Assembly: GCA_927407015.1 (NCBI GenBank)
Contig: CAKMJT010000015.1
Span: 1 to 64,000 of the forward strand
DNA: 64,000 nucleotides
Source of the DNA: an uncultured Proteiniphilum sp.
Lineage (GTDB): Bacteria; Bacteroidota; Bacteroidia; Bacteroidales; Dysgonomonadaceae
Reading direction: 5' to 3'
Made by a program: the position numbers and the translations under genes. Within the stretch, counting starts at the first letter, position 1. Each line of letters starts with the position of its first letter. Positions 278-13,041 of this stretch are shown here, piece after piece. The notes under the pieces are model-generated. The model saw only the letters and a program-made list of their open reading frames with translations, was not told the origin of the DNA and ran no database searches.

Positions 278-1240
278 TCAGTACCTCCGGTTCCGCATGG
301 TTTGGGATGCGGAGGTGGATGCGGTGCCGGAAGATTTTTTATTGCTGCGCCGGCTGGCCTCACTGGGTGGGGCGGCAACCGTTTTTTCTTCCTGGCGGAG
401 GAGTTGCTCAAAATCGAGCAGCTCCTGTTCGATCCGTTCCTGTTCTGCCTTCATCTCCTCAGGGGTGGAGGTGTATTGCGAGATGGAGCGGTTGCCGGGG
501 TTGCCGGTTTTATAGATTTCGCCGCTATAGCTCCGCTTCCGGAAGAAGTCATCCACCGTCTCGGTGACGCGGTTGTTGAGGGCGGAGGCCATCAGCGGCA
601 TACGACGGGTGTAGGGCTCGAGCTCACCATATTGAATCCAGAAGAGGGGATAGCGGGTATCGGCGGAGGCATCGTCGTCCTGCCGGAAGAGGATGGGGCA
701 GAGGGCCACAGGCTGCACTTGGAAGGCCGATGTGGCGGTGTCGAAGTAGTAGGCTTCCTTCAGGTAGTAGCCCAGCACTTCATTGGAGGGCACGTCGGCA
801 TCGTTCACCGTGATCACGCCGTTCTCCGTTTCATGGTAGATGCCGAAGCGGTTGACCAGCCCGGAAAAGTTAACACGGTACTCCTCGGTGAACTCCTCAC
901 GGCCGTCGAGGTACTCATACGCCCGAATGCGATCTTCCTGCAGCAGCCGGAAGATCATGGCAAAGAGATTGCGCTGACCCCCTGCGGATGTGGAGGGATG
1001 ATAGAGAGGTGCATTGCCCTCCTTTCTGAGGTCGATATAGCGGTAGATGACGCGTGACCAGCGGGCATCGGCGATCTCCTCTTCGATGTTTGGTCGGTTT
1101 TCCCGGATGGCAGGGGATACAGATGCTTGCCGCTCCTGCTGCCGCCGTTGCTCAATTCGTTCCCGGGCAGTGGTTTGCGGGTAGAGGGCCGTTACTTGCC
1201 CTACTAAAATGAATAGGATGAATATTGTCTTGGTTGTCAT
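278..1240 (-). CDS. gldN: Type IX secretion / gliding protein GldN (PorN)
   Basis: 320 residues with an N-terminal signal peptide (hydrophobic residues 5-20). GldN/PorN is a periplasmic partner of the lipoprotein GldK and builds the ring under the outer membrane in the type IX secretion system. The body is the usual charged alpha/beta region and contains the conserved stretch around WSRVIYRYIDL. The tail is basic and low in complexity. It is the last gene of the porP-gldK-gldL-gldM-gldN run, 10 bp after gldM, matching the order known from Porphyromonas and Flavobacterium. The ATG at 1240 follows directly. No terminator is visible downstream; a probable IS end lies within 140 bp of its stop. 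Confidence 0.95.
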   Translation of the reverse strand: MTTKTIFILFILVGQVTALYPQTTARERIEQRRQQERQASVSPAIRENRPNIEEEIADARWSRVIYRYIDLRKEGNAPLYHPSTSAGGQRNLFAMIFRLLQEDRIRAYEYLDGREEFTEEYRVNFSGLVNRFGIYHETENGVITVNDADVPSNEVLGYYLKEAYYFDTATSAFQVQPVALCPILFRQDDDASADTRYPLFWIQYGELEPYTRRMPLMASALNNRVTETVDDFFRKRSYSGEIYKTGNPGNRSISQYTSTPEEMKAEQERIEQELLDFEQLLRQEEKTVAAPPSEASRRSNKKSSGTASTSASQTMRNRRY

Positions 1241-1250
1241 AGCTTTTTAA

Positions 1251-2801
1251 TCAATTTACTCTCAGTTCCATTACCGCAATTTCGCGTTCCGTACCATCGG
1301 GGCCGGTGGCACGCACGCCGGAGATGTAGAAGTAGCTGCCACGAATCAGCCGCCGGATCTGCTCCCTTTGTCGCTCCGAGAAGCGACTGCCGTCTGATAC
1401 CTCGGGGATGGCATTGCCCATGGAATCAAAGAAGACGGTGCGGAAGCTTCTCACCTGAAAAGGCACGTGGAGGATGCCGTCGTCGATGGCGGCTTTGAGG
1501 CCGTCGTTCTGCAACAGGGCTGCCTTCGGGATGCTGCCTCCTTTCCGCATCACCGGGTTGCCCCCGGCATCGCGGTATTCGATATAGGGGGTGGGGTCGG
1601 GGAGGGTGCGCACCCGGAAGGTGTGCGTCGCCACCCTGCGTGCCTCACCTCCCGCCGTGCGTGCCGAGACGGTGATGACCGCCTCCCTGCCGGCAGAAGC
1701 GGGACGGGCCACCCAGAGGTTGCCGCGGCGACCGAGGGTGCCGTTGGTCATCACGGCGCTCACCTCCTGCGGTGCGACACCAGGCACCGATATGCTGACC
1801 TCATTGTCGATGCCGGCATAGAGCACGTTCATCAGTGTGGGGGCGACGGTGGCCATCGGCTCGATAACTGTATAGCTGCTGCTGAAATCACGCCGGGTGA
1901 CGCTGCCGTCACTGCCGGTCAGTTCCACATACCCCTCCACCGGGAAGGTGCCGCTGCGGGGAGCCGGCAGCGAGAAGAAGCCGTCGTCGCCGACTTCCGG
2001 CGCCTGCCCCTGCACCACGATGTGCGGACGGCTGGTGCTGTCCTCTGCCGCGAGAATCACCCGTGCGTTGTAACTCCCGCCCTGCAGTACCGTCTCCGAC
2101 TCGGGGATCAGCCAGGCGTTGAGTCGGTTCAGCCGGAAGTCGCCCATATCCACACTCTGGAGGAGCGATGCCAGTGCCTCTCCCTCTGAGAGACGGATGT
2201 CGTTCTCAATCTTGGTGAGCAGGGTAACGGCTGCCGCCAGCGGCATCTGCTCAAACAGCGACGCCTCCCAGCTCCTGCCGCCGGCTCGGGGATCCGTGGA
2301 GAGGTTGCAGGCGATCAGTGCGCGGCGCGACGGGTCGTCCACCCACGTCATCAGCTGCTCACGGTAGCTGTCGATAGCCATTCTTAGCTTCTTTCCCTCA
2401 CCCCGCAGGGGAGAGAGCATCACCACCGCAGCGGCCTCCAGGTCGTCCTTATGCCGGATGTGACTGATGTCGCCCCGCTTCCCGTCCGCCTCCCGCACCA
2501 TCTGCAGCTTCAGGTCACGGATGTACTGTGTGAGTGAATCGCTCATGCTGCGCACCTGCAGGCCTTTGTCGGTCCACGCACCCGCTTTTTCGGGGTTCGC
2601 GGCGCGGTAGGCGGAGAGCTCCTCCATGATGAGCCTGTTCTGCTCCTGCAGGGTCTGCGACGATTCGCCGAGCCGCTCATCCACCACCCCGAAGCCGTCG
2701 AGCACCTCCACCGAGACGTTGAGGGCCAGCATCGCGATGAAGACCAGGTACATCAGGTTGATCATCTTCTGACGGGGGGAGTTGGGACTGTTGACTGCCA
2801 T
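1251..2801 (-). CDS. gldM: Type IX secretion / gliding motor protein GldM (PorM)
   Basis: 516 residues. A single membrane helix at about residues 13-32 follows a short cytoplasmic tail, and the remaining 480 residues are periplasmic, as in known GldM. GldM and GldL form the proton-driven inner-membrane motor that powers type IX secretion and gliding, and the GldM periplasmic arm reaches the GldK/GldN ring. Acidic residues expected near the helix (EVLDGF) are present just after it. The gene sits 13 bp after gldL and 10 bp before gldN, so translation is probably coupled. Length and order are ordinary for the family. Confidence 0.96.
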   Translation of the reverse strand: MAVNSPNSPRQKMINLMYLVFIAMLALNVSVEVLDGFGVVDERLGESSQTLQEQNRLIMEELSAYRAANPEKAGAWTDKGLQVRSMSDSLTQYIRDLKLQMVREADGKRGDISHIRHKDDLEAAAVVMLSPLRGEGKKLRMAIDSYREQLMTWVDDPSRRALIACNLSTDPRAGGRSWEASLFEQMPLAAAVTLLTKIENDIRLSEGEALASLLQSVDMGDFRLNRLNAWLIPESETVLQGGSYNARVILAAEDSTSRPHIVVQGQAPEVGDDGFFSLPAPRSGTFPVEGYVELTGSDGSVTRRDFSSSYTVIEPMATVAPTLMNVLYAGIDNEVSISVPGVAPQEVSAVMTNGTLGRRGNLWVARPASAGREAVITVSARTAGGEARRVATHTFRVRTLPDPTPYIEYRDAGGNPVMRKGGSIPKAALLQNDGLKAAIDDGILHVPFQVRSFRTVFFDSMGNAIPEVSDGSRFSERQREQIRRLIRGSYFYISGVRATGPDGTEREIAVMELRVN

Positions 2802-2814
2802 GTATAGGATTGAA

Positions 2815-3528
2815 TTACAGTTGAGAGGCTGTGCTGTTGCCGCCCCTGTGTACGGTCATGGCCTGCAGCATGCGTGCATAGGCGTCGTTCAGCTCGCGGA
2901 GCTGTGCCGCCATTCGTTCTGTCTCGCGACCGATCACCGTGCCGTCGGGAATGGTGTCGCTATAGGTGTTCTTTAGCCGCTGCAGCCCCCGGTTGATCTG
3001 CTCAATGGTGTCGATCTGTCCGCTGATGCTCTTCAGCTGTACCTCGTAGAGCGCATTGAGGCCCGACAGTGTGCGGTTCAGGCTCTCCATCTGTTTGCCG
3101 TATTCCTCGGCGTGACCGTTCAGTTGCGGGGGAATCGCCGTCGTTGTTCCGGGGAGGGATTGTACGGGCTGATCTCCGGCAGGCATACCCTGTGTCGCGG
3201 AAGGCCTGGCAGCGGATAGTGGTGTAAAGGCATCTGTTCCGAAATCGGGGTGCTCCTCCGGGTTCTGCGAGGCGAGCACCGGGAATACCTGCTCCCAGGG
3301 ATAATCGCGAACCGGCGTGTCGAAGGCGGAGATGATAAAGACGCACACCTCGGTCACCATCCCGATAAAGAGCATCTCGTTGCCGAAGGGGAAGTGCAGC
3401 AACTTGAACATGGCACCCAGGATCACGATGGCCGCACCGAAGCTGTAGGCAAAATTAATGAATCGTTTTCCGCGTTCCGTTTGCAGGAACTGTTCGAGCC
3501 TGTTTTTATATTTCTTGTATGCATTCAT
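2815..3528 (-). CDS. gldL: Type IX secretion / gliding motor protein GldL (PorL)
   Basis: 237 residues. Two adjacent hydrophobic helices lie at about residues 26-44 and 49-68, followed by a long cytoplasmic domain with a heptad-like C-terminal part. GldL forms the pentameric inner-membrane ring around the GldM dimer. The conserved glutamate expected in the second helix is present (MVTEVCVF). A proline/glycine/glutamine-rich linker at about residues 95-140 separates the membrane part from the coiled-coil tail. It lies 27 bp after gldK. Confidence 0.95.
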   Translation of the reverse strand: MNAYKKYKNRLEQFLQTERGKRFINFAYSFGAAIVILGAMFKLLHFPFGNEMLFIGMVTEVCVFIISAFDTPVRDYPWEQVFPVLASQNPEEHPDFGTDAFTPLSAARPSATQGMPAGDQPVQSLPGTTTAIPPQLNGHAEEYGKQMESLNRTLSGLNALYEVQLKSISGQIDTIEQINRGLQRLKNTYSDTIPDGTVIGRETERMAAQLRELNDAYARMLQAMTVHRGGNSTASQL

Positions 3529-3555
3529 ATGGGTGTCTTTTTCCTGTGTTGGTTT

Positions 3556-4971
3556 TTACTTTCCTCCTCCCACCTGCGTCCTCACGCAACGGAATCCAAT
3601 ATAGGAGCGGCCTCTGTGATGGTATTCGGAGTCACGCATATCGGAACGGATAAAGGTGGCATTGTCTTTCCAGGAGCCCCCCTTCACCACCTTGCGTTTC
3701 AGCAGGGACGGGTCGTCCGTGGTTGCATCGTACCTGTATTCCGGATTCAGGTCGGTCATCAGCTCATTCCCCGACCCGGTATAGGAGGTCGATGTCCATT
3801 CCGCTGCATTGCCCGCCATATCGTACAGCCCGAGCTGGTTGGGCTTGAAGCTCCGTACTTTGGCCGGGATCAGATGATTGTCCGCCGCATAGGCACCCTC
3901 GCCCGGGTTGAAGTTGGCCTGGTAACAGCCACCCTCACCGGTGGTGCTGTCCGAATTCCACGGGTAGCGGTTGTCGGAGTTGGCATTGCGCGCCGCCATC
4001 TCCCATTCCGCCTCGGTGGGCAGCCGGTATTTCTCGATCTGCACCCCTTCCTTGTTGATGCTCCTGCGCAGGAACAGGGTGCGCCACTCGCAGAAGGCGG
4101 TGGCCTGATCCCAGCTGACCCCCACCACAGGGTGATGGGCATAGCCGGGATGGGCGAAGTAGTTGCGCATATAGACCTCGTTGTTGGCATTGGGGAAGTC
4201 GTTCACCCAGCAGGTGGTGTCGGGGTAGATGTTGACGATGCGGGTGTGGACGAAGTCGTAGAGGCTGCCCAGCGGCCGGGTGAGGGTCTCGTTGACGATG
4301 CGTCCGTCGCTGGCCACATACGCAGTGTCCTTGGTGATCATCACCGTTTGTTCCGCAGCGGGACTGCCTCCCGCAGCGACGGCTCCCAGCACCCTGCTGA
4401 GGTGGTGCTGCAGTCTGGCTGCCTCCGCCGCATCGAACCATTCGTAGCGGAAGTTGAGTTGTGCCGCATCGAGCATCTTCTGTCCCGTGATGGGATGGGT
4501 GACGTAGAGGCTGTTGATGGCTGCCTCCTCCTCTTCGGTGTTGCGGGTCCAGGGGATGGGGGCGGACCAGTTGAGGCGTGGGGTGACGGGCTCTCCGTAT
4601 TCATCCTCGGCGATTTTATAAAAGTCGTCACCCGCATAGCGCGGGTCGGCGATTCGTTCGCGGATGATGGAGTCGCGTACCCAGTAGACAAACTGTTTGT
4701 ACTGCGAGTTGGTAATCTCGGTCTCATCCATCCAGAAGTTGTCGACCGATACACCCCGTGTGGGAATGGTGATGCCCCAGAGCGAGTCGATTTCGCCCGG
4801 ACCCATGGTATAGGCGCCGCGTGTCACCAGCACCATGTTGTAGGGTGTGGGCTCATCCCACACCTTTCCCACGGGAACGCCGGTCAGCTCGCCCCCCATA
4901 CTGCCGATCCCCGGACGTCCACAGGAGATAATCAGTATCAGCACTGAAAGGAAAAGGAAATATTGCTTCAT
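3556..4971 (-). CDS. gldK: Type IX secretion lipoprotein GldK (PorK)
   Basis: 471 residues. A lipoprotein signal ends at Cys17 (LIISCG), so the protein should be anchored to the outer membrane. The rest is a formylglycine-generating-enzyme-like (SUMF1) domain with the fold markers MDETEITNSQY, LPTEAEWEMAARN and a C-terminal GFRCVR. In GldK/PorK this fold is structural and forms the periplasmic ring with GldN. The 340-bp gap between gldK and the upstream porP is filled with short tandem repeats and holds no promoter I could recognise. Confidence 0.95.
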   Translation of the reverse strand: MKQYFLFLSVLILIISCGRPGIGSMGGELTGVPVGKVWDEPTPYNMVLVTRGAYTMGPGEIDSLWGITIPTRGVSVDNFWMDETEITNSQYKQFVYWVRDSIIRERIADPRYAGDDFYKIAEDEYGEPVTPRLNWSAPIPWTRNTEEEEAAINSLYVTHPITGQKMLDAAQLNFRYEWFDAAEAARLQHHLSRVLGAVAAGGSPAAEQTVMITKDTAYVASDGRIVNETLTRPLGSLYDFVHTRIVNIYPDTTCWVNDFPNANNEVYMRNYFAHPGYAHHPVVGVSWDQATAFCEWRTLFLRRSINKEGVQIEKYRLPTEAEWEMAARNANSDNRYPWNSDSTTGEGGCYQANFNPGEGAYAADNHLIPAKVRSFKPNQLGLYDMAGNAAEWTSTSYTGSGNELMTDLNPEYRYDATTDDPSLLKRKVVKGGSWKDNATFIRSDMRDSEYHHRGRSYIGFRCVRTQVGGGK

Positions 4972-4979
4972 ATTGTTAG

Positions 4980-5110
4980 AAATCAGTAGTCAGCTATCAG
5001 TTTTCAGTGTTCAGCTCTCAGCATTTAGTAATCAGTAATCAGTAATAGTTCTCAACAATCAGCATTGAACTATCAGTATTCAGTAATCAGTATCAGCTTT
5101 CCCGTTTCGC
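4980..5110. repeat. Degenerate AATCAGT/TTCAGT short tandem repeats
   Basis: This part of the gldK-porP gap is built from imperfect 6-10 bp units around TCAG (for example AATCAGTAATCAGTAATCAG at 5031-5050). The same unit recurs at 8470-8515 and 46950-47040. It holds no open frame. It is not a CRISPR, because no constant repeat and spacer lengths can be found. Confidence 0.8.
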
Positions 5111-5144
5111 AGGATATTCGCTGCGCTGCAATCAACAATCAGCG

Positions 5145-5311
5145 TCAGTTTCATCATATTCACCACATTCACCGCATCAGCACATTCACCACTTTATCGC
5201 ATCATCACATCATCGCATCATCGCATCATCGAATTACCACATTCATCACATCATCACATCATCACATCATCGCATTATCACATCTGCTAATCGTTGAATC
5301 GTTGAATCGTT
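5145..5311. repeat. CATCACATCATCG microsatellite-like tract and remainder of the gap
   Basis: Trinucleotide-rich tract made of CAT/CAC/TCG units (ATCATCACATCATCGCATCA and variants), followed by two copies of TCGTTGAA at 5291-5307. It completes the gene-free stretch upstream of gldK and directly follows the 3' end of porP. No promoter or terminator could be recognised in it. Confidence 0.75.
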
Positions 5312-6286
5312 TCACAACAGCCGGATGCTCTTCTGGGGCTGCAGCTTCGGTTTGAAATAGTCCAAAGGAAAGTTGCAGCGAAGATAGAGCTCATGACTGC
5401 CTTTGCTTTCACTCCCCACACCAGAGGTATGCAGGCTGTAGGCATATCCCAGCTCCAGCCCCTGCAGCGTGGCTCCGGCAAAGAAAGCGTAGCCGTCGTC
5501 TGACAGCCACGACACACCGCCCGAGAACCTTTTGTCGTATTTCAGGCGCAGTGTGGCCTGTACCTGTGTCACACTGAGATCGGACTGCACCCGCACCATC
5601 GGTTGTATTTCTAACGGAGAAAACAGTCTGATATTGTATCTGGCCAGCAAATGCCAGGAGCGGGGAATGGATGACCGGGCTGAATCGCTCTGCAGGCCGA
5701 TGGCGGCAATGGAATCGGGTACCGCATCAAACGCGGGTTGAGTGAGGTGCAGCACCGACAGGCCCGCGTAGAAATGCCCGCTCCAGGCAATGCCGGCATT
5801 CAGATCGGCCAGCTGTCGCTCCGCGGGGTTCACCTGCAGTGTACCCCGCTCATAAGGCTCACCACCGGGGATAAGGTGCAGACTGCCTGCATCATATTGC
5901 AGGCTGTAGATGCCGCCCTGCAGCCCAAGCTGCAGCGCCCCTGACCCCCATGCCTGCCGGAAGCTGTACTGGCCGGCCAGCAACGTATTGCGGAGCGAAC
6001 CCATCTGCTCGGAAGAGGCCACGATGCCGGCACCATGGCGTCGCTGCAGAAACGCCACCGGCATATCGGCAGTCAGCACCACTCTTTGGGGTGCATTGTC
6101 GATGCCTGCCCACTGATACCGGTAAACGGCTGCGGTGCGTATCTGCTCTGTTTCGCCGGCGAAAGCGGGGTTATAAAATCCCCTTACCGTCCAATAGTGA
6201 CTGAACGGTGCATCCCATTGCGCCTGTATCGCAGAGAGGCAGAACAACAGAAGAAGCGATAAGCAGAGAAATCGCCGTTTTTCCAT
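5312..6286 (-). CDS. porP: PorP/SprF family outer-membrane protein of the type IX secretion system
   Basis: 324 residues from ATG 6286; two codons upstream there is only a GTG, so the ATG is preferred. A signal peptide covers about residues 1-22. The body is a predicted beta-barrel: alternating hydrophobic strands, the early motif FYNPAFAG, and a sequence ending on the outer-membrane strand. PorP/SprF proteins tether secreted adhesins or the PorKLMN machinery at the outer membrane. Its place just before gldKLMN is the Porphyromonas order. It lies 140 bp after the VOC gene on the same strand. It could instead be a SprF-like paralogue dedicated to one substrate, but the context favours the core role. 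Confidence 0.88.
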   Translation of the reverse strand: MEKRRFLCLSLLLLFCLSAIQAQWDAPFSHYWTVRGFYNPAFAGETEQIRTAAVYRYQWAGIDNAPQRVVLTADMPVAFLQRRHGAGIVASSEQMGSLRNTLLAGQYSFRQAWGSGALQLGLQGGIYSLQYDAGSLHLIPGGEPYERGTLQVNPAERQLADLNAGIAWSGHFYAGLSVLHLTQPAFDAVPDSIAAIGLQSDSARSSIPRSWHLLARYNIRLFSPLEIQPMVRVQSDLSVTQVQATLRLKYDKRFSGGVSWLSDDGYAFFAGATLQGLELGYAYSLHTSGVGSESKGSHELYLRCNFPLDYFKPKLQPQKSIRLL

Positions 6287-6426
6287 TATCACTATAACTG
6301 AAAAACGGCGGAAAAATTGTGTAGAGAAACCGCTTATTTTTGTGGACAGGATTTTTTATGTTTATTTGTGCGGACAGTACCTTATCGGGCTGACTCCGGG
6401 AGACAGAAGCGGTGTGCAATAACAGC

Positions 6427-7521
6427 TTACAGACTTTCCGGTTTCACCCGCATAAAGCGCAGCATGCCCAGCATCCAGCGTGGCAGTGGTTTTTCGGGAT
6501 CCCGTTTGCGCAGGTCGAGGCTCAGGTTCAGCTTCTTTATCACCGGGATCTTATGGGTCTCCACGAACTCGATCAGCGTGCCGTCGGGATCTTCGATGTA
6601 GGCAAACTGGCCGGCGGCATCTCCCATACCGAAGGAGCTACCCTCCCTGTACTTCTGTGTGGTGTCGACGGTGAAAGGGAAACCCATATCCGTGCATTTA
6701 TCACGCAACGCATCCATATTCCGGATGTCGAAACAGATCTGGATAAACCCGGGATCTCCCCAGTAGCGGCCTTCATAAATTTTTCGGGGTGTACGTTCAA
6801 GCGGCTGCACCAGTTCAATGGCTGATTTTCCCAGCAGCTCACTGAAGCCGCCTTTGCGGGGTGAGCTGTGTGTGAGCAGGCGTCGCCGGAAACGACCTTC
6901 GCCAGCGGGAAGCGCTTTCAGATCGTCGAAGGTGCCGGTTTGGTCGGAAACGATGGTGTCATAGCCCAGAATATCCCGGTAGACCGGCATTGCTTTTTCG
7001 ATGTCGGTCACCCCGATCATGGCGCCGGCGATACCGCCTGTCAGTCGTTTCTCATCGCGGAAGAGCGAAGTTTCCTGCACAACCTGGAACAGGTTGCCGA
7101 ACGGATCTTTGATGAAAAAGGTTTTGGTACCGTCAATCGTATCGGTCAATCCTCCCAAAAGATGCACATTCGGCTTGCCGGAGAACAGGTCGTAGGCTTT
7201 CGCCACATCGCGGCTCTTGATCTTTGCCACGAATACCCCCAGGTCACCCGTTTGAATTTCAAAGCCGACGGGTTGCGGTTTCCGTTCGGAGTACTGCCAT
7301 ATCTCAAATCCCCCGCCGCCCTGCATGTTGATGGCAATGGCCGCATGACGCTTCTGTGGTTTGCCACCGGTATAGGGGAGCATCAGCTCCGCCACGGTGT
7401 CATCTTCCAGGATGCGGATGTTCATCTGGAACATGTCGATGTAATATTTCCAGGCTTCGGCAAAGTTTTCCACGCCGATGCCGATCTGCTGGATGCCGGC
7501 GATATAGTACTTTTTGTCCAT
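6427..7521 (-). CDS. VOC (glyoxalase/HPPD-fold) family protein with degenerate metal ligands
   Basis: 364 residues from ATG 7521; the open frame runs 39 bases further up but those residues lack family similarity. Four beta-alpha-beta-beta-beta units are arranged in two halves, like 4-hydroxyphenylpyruvate dioxygenase and extradiol dioxygenases. The histidines normally found in HIG/HVCF-type strands are replaced (QIGIGV near residue 12, FIQICFDI near residue 265). The late glutamate strand GTLIEFVETH is kept. It is the last gene of the same-strand run alpha-oxoamine synthase, threonine-synthase-like enzyme, reductase, VOC. A lipid-modifying role is only an inference from position. It is commonly annotated as glyoxalase or HPPD. 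Confidence 0.8.
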   Translation of the reverse strand: MDKKYYIAGIQQIGIGVENFAEAWKYYIDMFQMNIRILEDDTVAELMLPYTGGKPQKRHAAIAINMQGGGGFEIWQYSERKPQPVGFEIQTGDLGVFVAKIKSRDVAKAYDLFSGKPNVHLLGGLTDTIDGTKTFFIKDPFGNLFQVVQETSLFRDEKRLTGGIAGAMIGVTDIEKAMPVYRDILGYDTIVSDQTGTFDDLKALPAGEGRFRRRLLTHSSPRKGGFSELLGKSAIELVQPLERTPRKIYEGRYWGDPGFIQICFDIRNMDALRDKCTDMGFPFTVDTTQKYREGSSFGMGDAAGQFAYIEDPDGTLIEFVETHKIPVIKKLNLSLDLRKRDPEKPLPRWMLGMLRFMRVKPESL

Positions 7522-7677
7522 ATGTGTGCTTAACTGAGATAATGATGATTCAATTGCCAATGCCTCTTCCGGCGCTGCGGCTGCTGTTGTGGCATCCTTG
7601 TTCCTGGCCGGGACAATAGTGATTCCATTTGCAACGGGTTCGAAATAAATGGGTACAGACGGAACGCGTTGCAGCGG

Positions 7678-8469
7678 TCAGACGGGTTTGATCCGGCGTG
7701 CCAGCCTGCGCGAAAGGGCCGGGAGAAACCGTTTGATATAGACCATCAGCAGTTCGGAACCTCCCACCAGCACCTCCGGCTTTTGTTTTTTGATCGCTTT
7801 CACGATCTTGCGGGCCGCTTTTTCTGCCGTGATCCCTTTCTCCTGCCCCTCGTCCATCCGTCCGTGTTTTTTTCCGTCTGCCTCCAGTGCGTTGTAAGAG
7901 ATATTTGTTTGTATGCGGCCCGGGCAGACCATCACCACCCGTATCCGGTCGTTGTAATACTCGGCTTGTACCGTCTCGAAGAAGCCGTAGAGGGCAAACT
8001 TCGATGCGGCATAGGCTGAGCGCAACGGAAAGCCGAACTTGCCGGAGATGCTGCTGGTGACGGCGATGGTGCCGCCCCCCTGTGCTATCATCGCGGGCAG
8101 GAGCCGCTTGGCGATTTGCATCGGTGCGAAGAAGTTCACCTGCATGATCTTTTCATCCACCCAGGCAGAGGTCTCCAGCGTTGTGGAACGCTGACTGATG
8201 CCGGCATTGAGAAAAGCTATATCCATATTGCCGAAGAGCGCAATGGCCTTGTCTGTCAGCACATCCATATGAATCAGATCAGACAGGTCGTAAGGCAATA
8301 TCTCACAACGGGCGCCCAGCCGAATGCATTCCTGCTGCACCACTGCCAGCCTGTCGGCGCGTGTGGCCGTGAGGATCAGATTGCACTTCTCCCGGGCGAA
8401 CAGATAGGCGCACGCTTCGCCGATACCGGAAGAAGCGCCTGTGATCCATATCGTTTTGTTGGGTTGCAT
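7678..8469 (-). CDS. Short-chain dehydrogenase/reductase, candidate 3-ketocapnine reductase
   Basis: 263 residues of a classical SDR. The cofactor loop TGASSGIG spans residues 10-17, NAG is at 88-90, and the catalytic set is Ser139/140, Tyr153 and Lys157 (YAASK). A basic hydrophobic C-terminus (YIKRFLPALSRRLARRIK) suggests membrane contact, as in 3-ketodihydrosphingosine reductases. The neighbours are an alpha-oxoamine synthase that makes a 3-keto amino lipid and a threonine-synthase-like enzyme. The likely job is therefore to reduce the 3-keto group of the acylated amino acid, giving capnine if the amino acid is cysteate. The substrate is inferred; the SDR family assignment is secure. Confidence 0.85.
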   Translation of the reverse strand: MQPNKTIWITGASSGIGEACAYLFAREKCNLILTATRADRLAVVQQECIRLGARCEILPYDLSDLIHMDVLTDKAIALFGNMDIAFLNAGISQRSTTLETSAWVDEKIMQVNFFAPMQIAKRLLPAMIAQGGGTIAVTSSISGKFGFPLRSAYAASKFALYGFFETVQAEYYNDRIRVVMVCPGRIQTNISYNALEADGKKHGRMDEGQEKGITAEKAARKIVKAIKKQKPEVLVGGSELLMVYIKRFLPALSRRLARRIKPV

Positions 8470-8585
8470 TTTTTTAGCTGTCAGCTGTCAGCTGTCAGCG
8501 ATCAGCTTTTTTAGTTGGGTTGATGATGCTTTCAGCGTTATTGGTTTTAGCGATCAGCTTTCACTTTTCACTTTTCACTTTTCAC
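8470..8585. repeat. GCTGTCA and TTTTCAC short tandem repeats
   Basis: The gap between the reductase and the threonine-synthase-like gene holds three copies of AGCTGTC (8478-8500), several GATCAGC units, then TTTCACTTTTCACTTTTCAC up to the stop codon at 8586. The second unit recurs at 55300-55325, again directly behind a minus-strand gene. No promoter element was seen. Confidence 0.75.
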
Positions 8586-9911
8586 TCAATCCAGCACATC
8601 CTTCCAGAGTTGTGCGCGGTAATCATCGATGGAGTGGGGCGCACATTCATCCACATTGCTCACGTTGTGAGTGGTGTAGATCATCTGTTCCAGGTAAGCA
8701 GGTGCGCGGTTGGGGCCTTCGCCGAGATTGATCAGCACGGTCTCGCCGTTTTTGATCAGGTTCTTCCGCAAAGCGATAAAGAATCCGGCCATGGCCACTG
8801 CCGAGGCGGGACCGGGGATCACTTTCTGCTCATAGGCCATCAGCTTGCCCACCGGAACGAGCTTCTCTTCCCGCATCCGGAGGAATGTGCCGCCCGATTT
8901 TTTCACCAGTCGCGCAATGATAGGGTAGGTGGCCGGGTTGCCGGTAGCCAGCGTGGGTACCTCAGTCTGGGGATTATCGATTACCGGGTACTCTTTTTCA
9001 AATCCCTCAGGAAATCCCTCTGCTTCCGACTTCTCCCACGCCTGCACCATCGGGTCACACTGGTCGGTCTGCACCAGCAGAAAACGGGGGTTCTTCAGCT
9101 CCGGATACACATGGCTGATCTCCCGGATGCCCTTGTCGATGGCGATAGGTCCCGTGCCGCCGCTCACCGCCTGGATGTATACATCGGGAAACTGATCCAT
9201 CTGACGGAGCCACTCGAACACCATGGTCTTCTTGGCTTCCACACGGATGGGATCTATGTTGCCGGTGGACATCGGGATATGATAATACCCGGCATATCCG
9301 GCAGCAATCTCCTTTGCCTTCGCATAATCACCCATCACCCGGAAGACCTGTTGTCCGAAGGAGCTGATGGTTGCTTCAGAGCTCCTGATGGCATCTTCCG
9401 GCATGAAGACGGAGCAGTTCACACCTGCCATGGAAAGGTATTTGGCATAGGCCGTTGCGGAGTTACCTGTGGAGGCGATGCAGTACTGTTTGATACCCAA
9501 CTCATTGAACAGGCTGGCAGCCATGGAGGCAGCAGGGTCCTTGAAGGTGCCGGTACCCCCGTTCAGGTCGTTGCGGTAGACGTGCACGTTGATGTCGAGA
9601 CCATGGTTCTTTTTGGCATACTCCTGCAGAAAGGTCCACCGTTCCACGGGAACGGCGCCCTCACCTCTGGAGATGATGTGCCTTCTGCGCAACAGGGGGA
9701 GAAAGGGGAAATAGTGCCAGAAGCTGTCCGGCTTGCGTTTGATGATACGCGGTAACCGTTGGTATCGTCTGTTGTACCACACCTCCGAATGTTTGCTCCC
9801 GCACTGTGGGCATTGCTGGTTCTGGTCGAACCAGGTCCAGAAATTGGGGGTCTCGTACCCGCACTGGGTACAGGTTAAGTGATACTTGTGCTGAATTTTT
9901 ACTCGAAGCAT
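8586..9911 (-). CDS. Threonine-synthase-like PLP enzyme, candidate cysteate synthase
   Basis: 441 residues of fold-type II PLP enzyme. An N-terminal zinc ribbon is formed by Cys14, Cys17, Cys34 and Cys37. The PLP lysine is Lys124 in GGTGTFKDP, the phosphate or substrate loop is STGNSATAYA (147-156), and a glycine-rich SGGTGPIAI follows. Threonine synthases use O-phosphohomoserine. Archaeal cysteate synthase is a close paralogue that uses O-phosphoserine and sulfite to make L-cysteate. The gene starts 50 bp after an alpha-oxoamine synthase and precedes an SDR, which is the set needed to make a sulfonolipid base. No other threonine genes (thrA, thrB) are nearby. Plain threonine synthase is the alternative. 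Confidence 0.82.
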   Translation of the reverse strand: MLRVKIQHKYHLTCTQCGYETPNFWTWFDQNQQCPQCGSKHSEVWYNRRYQRLPRIIKRKPDSFWHYFPFLPLLRRRHIISRGEGAVPVERWTFLQEYAKKNHGLDINVHVYRNDLNGGTGTFKDPAASMAASLFNELGIKQYCIASTGNSATAYAKYLSMAGVNCSVFMPEDAIRSSEATISSFGQQVFRVMGDYAKAKEIAAGYAGYYHIPMSTGNIDPIRVEAKKTMVFEWLRQMDQFPDVYIQAVSGGTGPIAIDKGIREISHVYPELKNPRFLLVQTDQCDPMVQAWEKSEAEGFPEGFEKEYPVIDNPQTEVPTLATGNPATYPIIARLVKKSGGTFLRMREEKLVPVGKLMAYEQKVIPGPASAVAMAGFFIALRKNLIKNGETVLINLGEGPNRAPAYLEQMIYTTHNVSNVDECAPHSIDDYRAQLWKDVLD

Positions 9912-9961
9912 ATTATTCGACTTTATACCGGGATGACGGTGCGTATAGTTATCCTGCCGTT

Positions 9962-11224
9962 TTATTCAATCGACATCGATTTCATCTCCTCCGCCTTGTA
10001 TTTTCCGGCTTCCAGATTCACTTTAATCTTTTTGAACACTTCGATGGTCTCCTCCACCTCTCTAAGTGTGTGCGATGCCGTAGGGATGAGCCTGAGCATC
10101 AGCACATCGCGGGGTACAACGGGATAGGCCACAATGGAGCAGAAGATGCCGTGATTCTCCCGCAGATCCACGACGACGTTGGTCCCCTCAGCTACATTCC
10201 CTTTCACATAGACCGGTGTGACAGGCGACCGGGTATTGCCAATATTGAATCCTTCGGCTATGAGTCCTTCCTGCAGCGATTTAGCTACTTTCCATAGGTT
10301 CTCCTTGTGCTGTGGCTGTGTCTGCAGGATCTCCAGCCGTTTCAGCGCACCGATGACCATGGGCATGGGCAGCGATTTGGCGAAGATCTGTGAGCGCATG
10401 TTGTACTTCAGCGAATCGACGATTGCCTTTTCGGAAGCCACAAAAGCACCGATCCCGGCCATCGATTTGGCGAAGGTGGCGAAATAGATATCCACTTCGT
10501 TCATCAGTCCGAAATGCTCGCTGGTTCCCGCGCCGGTTTCACCCATGGTGCCGAAGCCGTGGGCATCGTCAATCATGATCCGGAAGTCGTACTTCTCCCG
10601 TAGCTTCACGATGCCGGGAAGATCGCCCAGGCTGCCCGACATACCGAAGACACCTTCGGTCACGACCAGGATTCCGCCATTGTTCTCTTCGGCCTTCTTC
10701 ACGGCAAAGCCGAGCATTTTATCGCACTTCTCCATGTCGTTGTGTGCATACACGAAGCTCTTGCCTCCTTTGGCCTTGTGCAGAAAGATACCGTCCATGA
10801 TGCAGGCGTGTACTTCGGAATCATAGACGATCACATCGTTTCTCGATACCAGTGAATCGAGGATGGAGACCATCCCCTGATAACCGTAGTTTAACAGATA
10901 GGCAGCCTCTTTTTTCTCGAAGCGGGCCAGTCTCTCCTCCAGCTCCTTGTGGTATCTGGTCTGCCCTGACATCATCCGGGCACCCATCGGATAAGCCATC
11001 CCCCATTCTGCGGCCGCTTTGGCGTCTGCTTCCCGCACTTCGGGATGGTTGGCCAGTCCCAGGTAGTTGTTCAGACTCCAGGTGATGACCTCTTTGCCGT
11101 GAAATCTCATTCTCGGTCCTATTTCTCCTTCCAGCTCGGGAAACATGAAATAACCTTCCGCTTTTTTGCGGTATTGCTCCAGTGGCCCGTTGACATTTTT
11201 CAGCCTCTCAAAAATATCTGTCAT
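9962..11224 (-). CDS. Alpha-oxoamine synthase, candidate cysteate fatty acyltransferase
   Basis: 420 residues. Fold-type I PLP enzyme of the family of serine palmitoyltransferase, 2-amino-3-ketobutyrate CoA ligase and 8-amino-7-oxononanoate synthase. Key residues are His139 (DSEVHACIMDG), Asp219 and His222 (DDAHGFG) and the PLP lysine Lys253 (FAKSMAGIG). These enzymes condense an amino acid with an acyl thioester, losing CO2. In Flavobacterium johnsoniae an enzyme of this family makes the capnine precursor from cysteate and acyl donor and is needed for sulfonolipids and efficient gliding. The neighbouring cysteate-synthase-like gene makes the same role likely here. It is first in its operon, with a promoter at 11286. 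Confidence 0.86.
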   Translation of the reverse strand: MTDIFERLKNVNGPLEQYRKKAEGYFMFPELEGEIGPRMRFHGKEVITWSLNNYLGLANHPEVREADAKAAAEWGMAYPMGARMMSGQTRYHKELEERLARFEKKEAAYLLNYGYQGMVSILDSLVSRNDVIVYDSEVHACIMDGIFLHKAKGGKSFVYAHNDMEKCDKMLGFAVKKAEENNGGILVVTEGVFGMSGSLGDLPGIVKLREKYDFRIMIDDAHGFGTMGETGAGTSEHFGLMNEVDIYFATFAKSMAGIGAFVASEKAIVDSLKYNMRSQIFAKSLPMPMVIGALKRLEILQTQPQHKENLWKVAKSLQEGLIAEGFNIGNTRSPVTPVYVKGNVAEGTNVVVDLRENHGIFCSIVAYPVVPRDVLMLRLIPTASHTLREVEETIEVFKKIKVNLEAGKYKAEEMKSMSIE

Positions 11225-11319: not shown

Positions 11320-11574
11320 TTATGATCCGGCTTCCCCTTTATTCCCCTTGATCTCCACGAAATCCACATCCTCTGCTTCGCTGATCTCGAATGTCTTTTT
11401 TTGGTATTCAATGATGCGTTTCTCCTGTGTCACAGGCTGGTTGGATTGTTCAGGCCGTTGCGGTTGACGGGGTGATGTCTGTTTGCCCCGTTTACCCAGT
11501 AGGAAGCTGACGAACCCTTTCAACAGGAAGTAGATAACCATGAAAACAAGCAGAAATTTGATCAGAAATCCCAT
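11320..11574 (-). CDS. DUF4834 family small membrane protein
   Basis: 84 residues. One N-terminal hydrophobic helix (about residues 4-27) is followed by a basic proline/glutamine-rich linker and a short acidic end with the motif EDVDFVEIKG. This matches the Bacteroidetes family DUF4834, whose function is unknown. It lies downstream of pssA on the same strand, 70 bp after its stop, and upstream of the sulfonolipid-type operon, whose promoter lies between. It probably sits in the inner membrane with the tail in the cytoplasm. Confidence 0.8.
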   Translation of the reverse strand: MGFLIKFLLVFMVIYFLLKGFVSFLLGKRGKQTSPRQPQRPEQSNQPVTQEKRIIEYQKKTFEISEAEDVDFVEIKGNKGEAGS

Positions 11575-11644: not shown

Positions 11645-12358
11645 TTATTTAACGATTTGCCGCTCCCGATTGCGGGTGATCACGGAAAGAGCGATATAGG
11701 CCAGTATCCCCGCTGCTATGCCCATGATACCCCATAGTACCACAAAAACAATCATCAGAAGGATCAACAGCACCTGCCTCCCGTTTCCCTTCAGGCTTAT
11801 TTTTTTGATTTTCAGAGAGAACATGGGGATCCCGGTAATCATCAGCAGGGAGAGAGAGAGAATGAAAAAGAGGGTGACGTAGAACAGTGGTAACGGTGCC
11901 GGTGTGAGTAAATGTACACCGTAGCAATAGCTGATCCAGAAAAGGGCGTTGGCCGGTGTGGGCAATCCCCGGAAAGAGGTTGTCTGTCGCTCGTCGAGGT
12001 TGAATTTGGCCAGCCGGTAGGCGGAGAACACGGGAATCAGAAAAGCCGTATAGGGCAGGTAAAGGGTAAGGGGCTGCAAGATGCCGGGGATTGGCAGGGT
12101 ATCGCGCAACAGCATGAAGACAGTTACGGCGGGGGCTACACCAAAACTAACCACATCGGCCAGTGAATCGATCTCTTTCCCGATAGGAGAATAGGCTTTC
12201 AGTAACCTTGCGGCCGTGCCGTCAAGAAAATCGAAGAGTGCTGCCACAACCACCCAGATGACCACGGCTTTAAAATTAGCCTGCAAGGCCATCGTAATGG
12301 CAATGCAACCAGCCAGCAGATTGAGTAACGTGATGATATTGGGTATCTGTTTTCTCAT
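11645..12358 (-). CDS. pssA: CDP-diacylglycerol--serine O-phosphatidyltransferase
   Basis: 237 residues with about seven or eight hydrophobic helices. The CDP-alcohol phosphotransferase motif is complete: DGTAAR, then G eight residues later, then D...D in GKEIDSLAD (about residues 46-67). It transfers phosphatidyl from CDP-diacylglycerol to serine in the inner membrane, the first committed step to phosphatidylethanolamine. Its start overlaps the psd stop by 4 bp (ATGA), so the two enzymes of one pathway are translationally coupled. Confidence 0.95.
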   Translation of the reverse strand: MRKQIPNIITLLNLLAGCIAITMALQANFKAVVIWVVVAALFDFLDGTAARLLKAYSPIGKEIDSLADVVSFGVAPAVTVFMLLRDTLPIPGILQPLTLYLPYTAFLIPVFSAYRLAKFNLDERQTTSFRGLPTPANALFWISYCYGVHLLTPAPLPLFYVTLFFILSLSLLMITGIPMFSLKIKKISLKGNGRQVLLILLMIVFVVLWGIMGIAAGILAYIALSVITRNRERQIVK

Positions 12359-13041
12359 GATTGTCCGTTGTCTTGTTTGTTGAGCCGCGCCAGGAAGGTG
12401 ATGTTGGCGCGTACTTCTTCACCGGGTTCAACCAGTATCTCGCTGTCGGGAGGTAGAAAAATATCCATGCGCGACCCCAGCTTGATGAATCCCAGGGGTG
12501 AGCCGATATGCAGTTCATCACCCTCGTGCACGTAGGTCACAATCCGGCGTGCCATCGCTCCCGCAATCTGTTTGGTGAGGATCACCCCATGTCCGGGTGT
12601 TTCGATCAGTATGTTGGTATGTTCATTCTCGTGACTCGATTTAGGAAGGTATGCCGCATGGAAATTACCCTCCACATGCGAGAAATGGATGAGCCTGCCG
12701 CTAACGGGTACCCAGTTGGAGTGGGCATTGAAGAGCGACATGAAAATAGAGATCTTGATACGTTCATCGTGGAAGAACTCCTTTTCGAATACCTTCTCAA
12801 TCACCACGACCCTGCCGTCGGTAGGCGCGTTCACCAGCCCGTGCAGATCGCCCTTGTAGGTCCGTTCCGGCTTCTTGTAGAAATTAAGGGTGGTGACCAG
12901 CAGCAGGATGGAACAGGCGAGCACGACGACCGTGAAGAGGGTCTCGGTCAGCAGGGTGAAGGTGACCGCATTGACGAGCAGCAGGACCGTCAATACCCTG
13001 ATCAGTGGTTTTTTTCCCTCGTTGTGGATATGTATCTTCAT
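12355..13041 (-). CDS. psd: Phosphatidylserine decarboxylase proenzyme (short type)
   Basis: 228 residues. Two hydrophobic helices lie in residues 15-55. The self-cleavage site is the LGS within KLGSRMDIF at about residues 184-192; cleavage before this serine creates the pyruvoyl cofactor. A conserved histidine-rich stretch, NAHSNWVPVSG, precedes it. The enzyme converts phosphatidylserine to phosphatidylethanolamine and is encoded just upstream of pssA, with a 4-bp overlap. It follows cvpA by 5 bp. Confidence 0.95.
   Translation of the reverse strand: MKIHIHNEGKKPLIRVLTVLLLVNAVTFTLLTETLFTVVVLACSILLLVTTLNFYKKPERTYKGDLHGLVNAPTDGRVVVIEKVFEKEFFHDERIKISIFMSLFNAHSNWVPVSGRLIHFSHVEGNFHAAYLPKSSHENEHTNILIETPGHGVILTKQIAGAMARRIVTYVHEGDELHIGSPLGFIKLGSRMDIFLPPDSEILVEPGEEVRANITFLARLNKQDNGQS

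Follow-up and report, generated by a model that had tools for sequence, protein, structure and literature searches.

Four neighbouring minus-strand genes in the genome of an uncultured Proteiniphilum (family Dysgonomonadaceae, order Bacteroidales) very likely form a cassette that builds capnine, the backbone that carries the sulfonate of sulfonolipids. They lie in a 64,000-nucleotide stretch of contig C15 (CAKMJT010000015.1), hereafter the window, of a 3.18-Mb, 63-contig assembly. The genes encode an oxoamine synthase of the cysteate-C-fatty acyltransferase (CFAT) family, a pyridoxal phosphate (PLP) enzyme with the fold of threonine synthase (ThrC), a short-chain reductase (SDR) and a two-domain VOC protein (Table 1). 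Within the cassette, the PLP enzyme would be the cysteate synthase, and the VOC protein would belong to the same pathway. A bolder and tentative extension sees in the PLP enzyme a third, separately derived cysteate-synthase family of Bacteroidales, in some lineages lying within a sulfate-to-sulfonolipid cluster (transporter, cysD, cysN, cysH, cysQ, synthase, CFAT, VOC), and in the VOC protein an unrecognised catalytic step, possibly an oxygen-independent, metal-dependent isomerase or epimerase of 3-ketocapnine.

In the proposed pathway, the PLP enzyme would form L-cysteate from O-phosphoserine and sulfite, CFAT would condense cysteate with a fatty acyl donor to 3-ketocapnine with loss of CO2, and the SDR would reduce 3-ketocapnine to capnine. 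The VOC protein, encoded last, may act on the readily enolised 2-amino-3-keto intermediate, and N-acylation of capnine to the sulfonolipid would be carried out by an enzyme encoded elsewhere. Protein families, clade membership, clustering and co-occurrence are direct observations, from which we infer the catalytic steps in this organism and, above all, the identity of the substrates. An initial annotation of this DNA had already proposed L-cysteate, 3-ketocapnine and capnine as the successive products, and our results support this with high probability through the split of CFAT from serine palmitoyltransferase (SPT), the linkage of the PLP enzyme to sulfite genes and its mutual exclusivity with the TIGR03844 synthase. 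Its description of the gene set as complete is too strong, as no N-acyltransferase for capnine is among the identified genes.

The acyltransferase belongs to the CFAT family

The acyltransferase (ACYLTRANSFERASE) scores highest against PDB entries 7u7h and 28eh, the latter named cysteate-C-fatty acyltransferase, and far lower against the best SPT, 3a2b (Table 1), with BLAST identities of 61, 58 and 35%, respectively. A maximum-likelihood tree places the CFAT rows together with 7u7h and 28eh, and a 100/100 split separates them from SPT, from a KBL-like enzyme and from two other oxoamine synthases of the genome; this tree retains two mis-extracted rows (L240 and L243), which are open reading frames (ORFs) chosen by length that have no BLAST match to CFAT and branches of length 10. 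The oxoamine synthase thus groups with the solved CFATs and with neither SPT nor KBL, and assignment as SPT, KBL or BioF was rejected on this split and on the scores (310.9 against the SPT model cut-off of 640). Entry 7u7h is SulA of Alistipes finegoldii, which is active with cysteate and inactive with serine or phosphoserine, and in which Lys251 is the PLP site (excerpts of PMC9304779). The PLP-lysine region TFAKSMAGIGAF is identical in the window acyltransferase, 7u7h and 28eh, and its lysine is taken to be the counterpart of Lys251. The enzyme is therefore a CFAT by family, and use of cysteate is predicted from this relationship. As a separate observation, the open frame around CFAT at locus L263 (G179 contig C1, ~441586-442785) extends to 1171 aa, which may reflect a fusion or simply a long open frame.

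A separate lineage of ThrC-fold PLP enzymes

The PLP enzyme very probably represents a third lineage of cysteate synthases, beside the CysK-like CapA and the ThrC-like CapA2/TIGR03844 type, with conversion of O-phosphoserine and sulfite to L-cysteate as its predicted reaction. It scores below the cut-offs of the archaeal-type cysteate synthase model TIGR03844 (98.3 against 324.9) and of the threonine synthase models TIGR00260 (88.3 against 167.1) and PRK08197 (161.5 against 303), and the CapA model NF053679 is absent among its 16 NCBIfam matches (E 0.001). The CysK of the genome reaches 243.7 against the NF053679 cut-off of 600. In an 88-row tree with midpoint rooting only, the window type (42 rows) forms a single clade (100/98) on a long branch with no ThrC rows inside, and 16 CapA2-type rows, including PDB 9k3c from A. 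finegoldii, form a separate clade (100/100). The 27 ThrC rows lie apart from both, and three distant PALP proteins (L117, L133 and L134) fall among them. Left out of this tree were the phylum ThrC loci L017, L022, L032 and L034, with cut or over-long ORFs or an internal stop, and L019 and L030, which yielded no matching ORF. The nearest named relatives of the enzyme are from Proteiniphilum, with 88-89% identity in the top matches and 85% in P. acetatigenes DSM 18083 (L147:10001-11332).

With threonine synthases (2zsj, 1uim, 6cgq and 2d1f among the solved structures) the enzyme shares the fold (AlphaFold model with a mean pLDDT, the predicted local distance difference test, of 91.1), a PLP lysine in an (S/T)FK motif, and the N-terminal cysteines C14, C17, C34 and C37, which are common to it and the longer ThrC rows. 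It differs from them in scoring below the cut-offs, in its genomic partners and in forming its own clade. With CapA2/TIGR03844 it shares a ThrC-type fold, occurrence in CFAT-carrying Bacteroidales and 12 conserved positions (D195, Y196, G217, Y245, Q247 and A248 among them) at which ThrC most often has another residue, but identity is only ~21-26% over the BLAST-aligned part. Grouping with true threonine synthases would have counted against the initial annotation; the outcome is intermediate, as the enzyme forms a clade of its own, and it is not of the archaeal cysteate synthase type on which that annotation drew. Assignments as true ThrC, as archaeal-type cysteate synthase and as CapA were all rejected on the scores and clades given above, and in the case of ThrC also because the genome has a true ThrC elsewhere (306 against 167). 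This gene is located on another contig, in a thr cluster two genes from a bifunctional aspartokinase/homoserine dehydrogenase.

Genomic partners of the PLP enzyme

A function of the PLP enzyme is suggested by the company it keeps, and its pairing with CFAT is not a matter of chance. In a genus search of 37 genomes (the present one among them), the PLP enzyme and CFAT occur together in 32, and the genes adjoin on one contig in 31 of these, the remaining genome (G199) having fragments on two contigs. Neither gene was found in the other five, of which G210 is a 99%-complete single contig and four are 59-87% complete. A scan of named genomes covered 80 of 271 encoding stretches, and 78 were analyzed after L143 and L212 had been set aside because the PLP ORF was not called. 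CFAT is present on 65 of the 78 examined stretches: on all 37 at an identity of at least 70%, on 16 of 18 at 60-70% and on 12 of 23 below 60%. Of the 78 stretches, 49 also have an SDR akin to that of the window and 45 a VOC gene.

In other families, the PLP enzyme is found together with genes for sulfate activation and reduction. Sulfite, which known cysteate synthases use as co-substrate, is produced by CysH. L108 has the order cysH-cysD-cysN-PLP enzyme, L106 has cysD and cysC, and L104 has cysQ and a DASS-type transporter that scores under its NCBIfam cut-off. The most extensive arrangement occurs in L267, L268 and L269, where a divergent CFAT is followed in line by VOC, cysH, cysD, cysN, a DASS-type transporter, cysQ and the PLP enzyme, with one additional called ORF between CFAT and VOC in L267 and an SDR-like ORF ahead of cysQ in L269. 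CysH, CysD, CysN and CysQ of L267 and CysH of L269 are over their NCBIfam cut-offs, and the genes of L268 were identified by BLAST only. Between CFAT and the PLP enzyme, cysH also lies in L273, L274 and L265, over the cut-off in the first two and by BLAST only in L265 (L206 and L265 are the same contig and were counted once). Two control sets lacked such linkage. None of 20 CFAT loci (L279-L298), chosen from 45 genomes without either synthase, had a synthase, cys, SDR or VOC gene on its stretch, one of the stretches being only 3.9 kb, and none of five TIGR03844 loci had a cys, SDR or VOC gene on its stretch.

The distribution across the order points in the same direction. In a sample of 148 Bacteroidales genomes, where CFAT was counted up to an E-value of 1e-110, CFAT occurs in 112. 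The window-type PLP enzyme occurs in 32, 30 of them with CFAT, and the TIGR03844 synthase in 39 (38 over the cut-off), 37 of them with CFAT. The two synthases were not found together in any of the 148 genomes, against 8.4 expected, or 9.9 expected when calculated within CFAT carriers (Fisher p = 2e-5 and 6e-7, respectively, with relatedness ignored). On the stretches of the 32 carriers of the PLP enzyme, CFAT is present in 14, a cysH/D/N/C/Q gene in 12 and either in 19. Cysteate synthesis by the PLP enzyme is favoured because of its linkage to sulfite-producing genes and its exclusivity with TIGR03844.

Six genomes from the order sample (L245, L246, L247, L248, L249 and L272) share a neighbour of the window-type PLP enzyme, a protein of ~465-477 aa with a similar N-terminus; the one copy checked with Pfam, that of L246, has TPR repeats.

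The reductase and the VOC protein

The SDR carries the TGASSGIG, NAG and YAASK motifs for cofactor binding and catalysis, and is likely a 3-ketocapnine reductase. Distant families have ten SDRs with 38-59% identity to it in the vicinity of CFAT or VOC (L261, L262, L264, L270, L260, L271, L274, L277, L201 and L265). Identity to it falls to 27-32% for three further SDRs on the examined loci, one each in L249 and L269 and the second of L264. Several SDRs of C. gleum and A. finegoldii are active as 3-ketocapnine reductases and are located away from cfat and Cys (PMC11211663), and sequence alone is therefore no proof of this activity. Compared by description rather than by sequence, the window SDR and these reductases are alike in family and classical motifs and differ in that the window gene lies within the cassette.

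We propose that the VOC gene joins the capnine cassette as a fourth pathway gene. VOC carriers also carry CFAT in 50 of 52 cases in the order sample and in all 33 cases in a phylum sample. Related genomes are not independent in these counts, and one family (f23), whose CFATs (47-51% identical) were assigned by threshold outside any tree, provides 22 of the 33. The VOC gene overlaps CFAT in G158 and G064, and is paired with an SDR beside CFAT in G328, a genome of the TIGR03844 type.

The VOC protein has a two-domain fold resembling glyoxalases and hydroquinone dioxygenases, and a phmmer search of it against PDB sequences gave no match. It shares fold and two-domain layout with maize glyoxalase I, human GLOD4 and 2,6-dichlorohydroquinone dioxygenase at 10-16% identity. 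Q13 (52/52), Q14 (51/52), E75 (51/52), Q or H263 (52/52) and E320 (51/52) are conserved, and by comparison with glyoxalase I the Q/E/(Q or H)/E residues among them may be metal ligands. This pattern differs from the His-His-Glu site of dioxygenases of the 2,6-dichlorohydroquinone type. Proteiniphilum is an anaerobe.

Alternative explanations

Several results weigh against the assignments made above, and they are considered here together with the alternatives. The VOC protein may be a hitch-hiker, such as a glyoxalase for stress or detoxification, with no role in sulfonolipid synthesis. Of the 112 CFAT carriers in the order sample, 62 lack it, and where both genes are present, they are no more than 8 kb apart in only 9 of 50 order and 4 of 33 phylum genomes. 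The VOC gene is also found near CFAT in none of the 20 control loci, though ten of those 20 genomes carry a VOC gene elsewhere. As it is missing from these 62 carriers, the VOC protein is not essential to capnine as such. The almost complete restriction of the VOC gene to CFAT carriers, its overlap with CFAT in two genomes and its pairing with an SDR beside CFAT in a third argue against a hitch-hiker, which we regard as unlikely, and for a role in the capnine pathway.

A second alternative is that the PLP enzyme uses sulfite or sulfide for another product, for example cysteine (as an O-phosphoserine sulfhydrylase) or homocysteate, with the cysteate for CFAT coming from elsewhere. Linkage to cysHDN suits any sulfur-assimilating acceptor enzyme, and taken alone would equally fit cysteine synthesis. 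Two genomes, G254 and G269, have the PLP enzyme without a detected CFAT, and the stretches of 13 of the 32 carriers in the order sample hold neither CFAT nor a cys gene. These include some short stretches, and ORF calling skipped even the PLP gene in G268 and G274. For G254, a possible reason is a gap in the assembly (190 contigs), since its congener G360 has CFAT, the PLP enzyme and VOC. In addition, 45 of the 112 CFAT carriers show neither synthase in these searches, and in these genomes cysteate must have other sources. On the other side, the genome has a CysK over the cut-off, the PLP enzyme adjoins CFAT, and it shows no overlap with the TIGR03844 cysteate synthase while both accompany CFAT. 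In L268 and L269, every ORF of more than 110 aa in the interval from CFAT to the PLP enzyme was labelled as something other than sulfite reductase, a gene that was not searched for genome-wide. Taken together, another product is improbable, and cysteate remains the preferred one.

It is more improbable still that the PLP enzyme is a divergent second copy of threonine synthase that lies next to CFAT by chance. ThrC chains are the top Foldseek matches, with 9k3c at rank 19, and full-length scores place the enzyme closer to ThrC than to CapA2, with 161 bits to the ThrC model. At 17 conserved positions it matches ThrC where the CapA2 type differs, compared with the 12 positions of the opposite kind. 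However, both ThrC scores are only about half of their cut-offs, the genome has its true ThrC in a thr cluster, and the enzyme forms its own clade on a long branch and is linked in many families to CFAT and to sulfite genes. Finally, it is hardly credible that serine is the substrate and an ordinary sphingolipid base, instead of capnine, the product of the cassette: the enzyme superfamily is the same and the genome also has an SPT, but this separate protein (L004:1468-2658, contig C46) passes the SPT model with 662.5, whereas the cassette protein fails it and the CFAT rows are fully split from SPT.

Organization of the locus

The coordinates and the same-strand run of oxoamine synthase, PLP enzyme and SDR given by the initial annotation were confirmed. 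It left out of the pathway the fourth gene on the same strand, VOC, which lies within the same interval and whose end is the interval's first position, 6427. From CFAT through the PLP enzyme and SDR to VOC, the intergenic gaps are 50, 116 and 150 bp.

Table 1. Features of the cassette and of the genes upstream of it, with positions in the window.
Feature	Position	Strand	Evidence
CFAT (CapB/SulA), oxoamine synthase, 420 aa	9962..11224	-	573 bits to 7u7h, 547 to 28eh, 251 to SPT 3a2b; SPT/KBL split 100/100
ThrC-fold zinc-ribbon PLP enzyme, 441 aa, proposed third-lineage cysteate synthase	8586..9911	-	own clade 100/98; under the cut-off of every matched NCBIfam model; CFAT and/or cysH/D/N/C/Q neighbours
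SDR, 263 aa, probable 3-ketocapnine reductase (CapC/KCR role)	7678..8469	-	PF00106; TGASSGIG, NAG and YAASK motifs
Two-domain VOC (glyoxalase-fold) protein, proposed fourth pathway gene	6427..7527	-	PF00903/PF13669; co-carriage with CFAT; fold
84-aa ORF with hydrophobic N-terminal stretch, between pssA and CFAT	11320..11574	-	no Pfam match
CDP-OH phosphatidyltransferase, probably PssA (phospholipid synthesis)	11645..12358	-	PF01066; TIGR00473 105.7 bits vs cut-off 107
Phosphatidylserine decarboxylase (psd)	12355..13041	-	PF02666; NF003678 230.9 vs cut-off 225

A single promoter for the cassette, as suggested earlier, is plausible only. The Bacteroidota promoter consensus has a -7 element of the type TAnnTTTG, and an element of this type can be made out at 11293-11286, ~62 nt ahead of the CFAT start; 20 nt upstream of it, TTTC stands in place of TTTG. 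The strict Bacteroidota pattern had no match anywhere in the cassette, including the region upstream of CFAT. A scan for sigma-70 promoters gave 7 sites against 4.5 (standard deviation 2.0) in shuffles, and a scan for terminators gave 6 against 5.9 (standard deviation 2.3). Transcription could also read through from the 84-aa ORF, pssA and psd, which precede the cassette on its strand. ORFs resembling the 84-aa ORF occupy the same position between pssA and CFAT in other loci of the Proteiniphilum group.

Directly downstream of the cassette, at 278-6292 on the minus strand, are type IX secretion and gliding genes encoding GldN, GldM, GldL, a GldK-like protein with a sulfatase-modifying-factor domain, and PorP/SprF. 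A PorP-like gene is also found on the examined stretch in 22 of the 37 named loci with a PLP-enzyme identity of at least 70%. Sulfonolipids have been tied to gliding in other Bacteroidota (excerpts of PMC9304779).

Relation to known pathways and implications

The capnine pathway itself is already known, and is described as cysteate synthase, CFAT and reductase (CapA-CapB-CapC), with an archaeal-type cysteate synthase in Alistipes and Odoribacter (excerpts of PMC10191378 and PMC11211663) and capABC homologues in Labilibaculum (excerpts of PMC12927429). The proposed cassette has the same three steps as described in these excerpts, namely cysteate formation from phosphoserine, condensation with an acyl donor and reduction, and its CFAT is of the CapB/SulA family. 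It differs in that CapA looks CysK-like whereas the window synthase has the ThrC fold. Its genes are clustered, unlike those of C. gleum and A. finegoldii, where the reductases are apart from cfat and Cys (PMC11211663). What our results add to the initial annotation is a third synthase lineage backed by linkage to sulfite genes, and the VOC partner.

The matches listed in our literature searches included no report of a window-type cysteate synthase, though this type of enzyme may already appear in Liu et al. (2022), Hou et al. (2022) or Vences-Guzman et al. (2021). Nor did the listed matches contain a paper that names CapA2, and the name is taken from the title of 9k3c. For Proteiniphilum combined with sulfonolipid, none of the matches listed mentions the genus. 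The listed matches for glyoxalase and the Bacteroidota sulfonolipid pathway contained no pairing of the two, and the one overlap, PMC8319176, concerns roseobacters as far as its excerpt goes.

Sphingolipids and sulfonolipids may exclude each other, as suggested in an excerpt of PMC10191378. The presence of SPT and CFAT, which stand for the first steps of both lipid syntheses, in one genome runs counter to this suggestion. A third route to cysteate would also serve to test whether PLP enzymes have been recruited to the same reaction more than once, and the VOC protein is a conserved candidate for a pathway that has been described with three enzymes up to capnine. For the organisms themselves, our results predict that sulfonolipids, which are bioactive membrane lipids, would be found in Proteiniphilum, Petrimonas, Fermentimonas, Paludibacter and their relatives.

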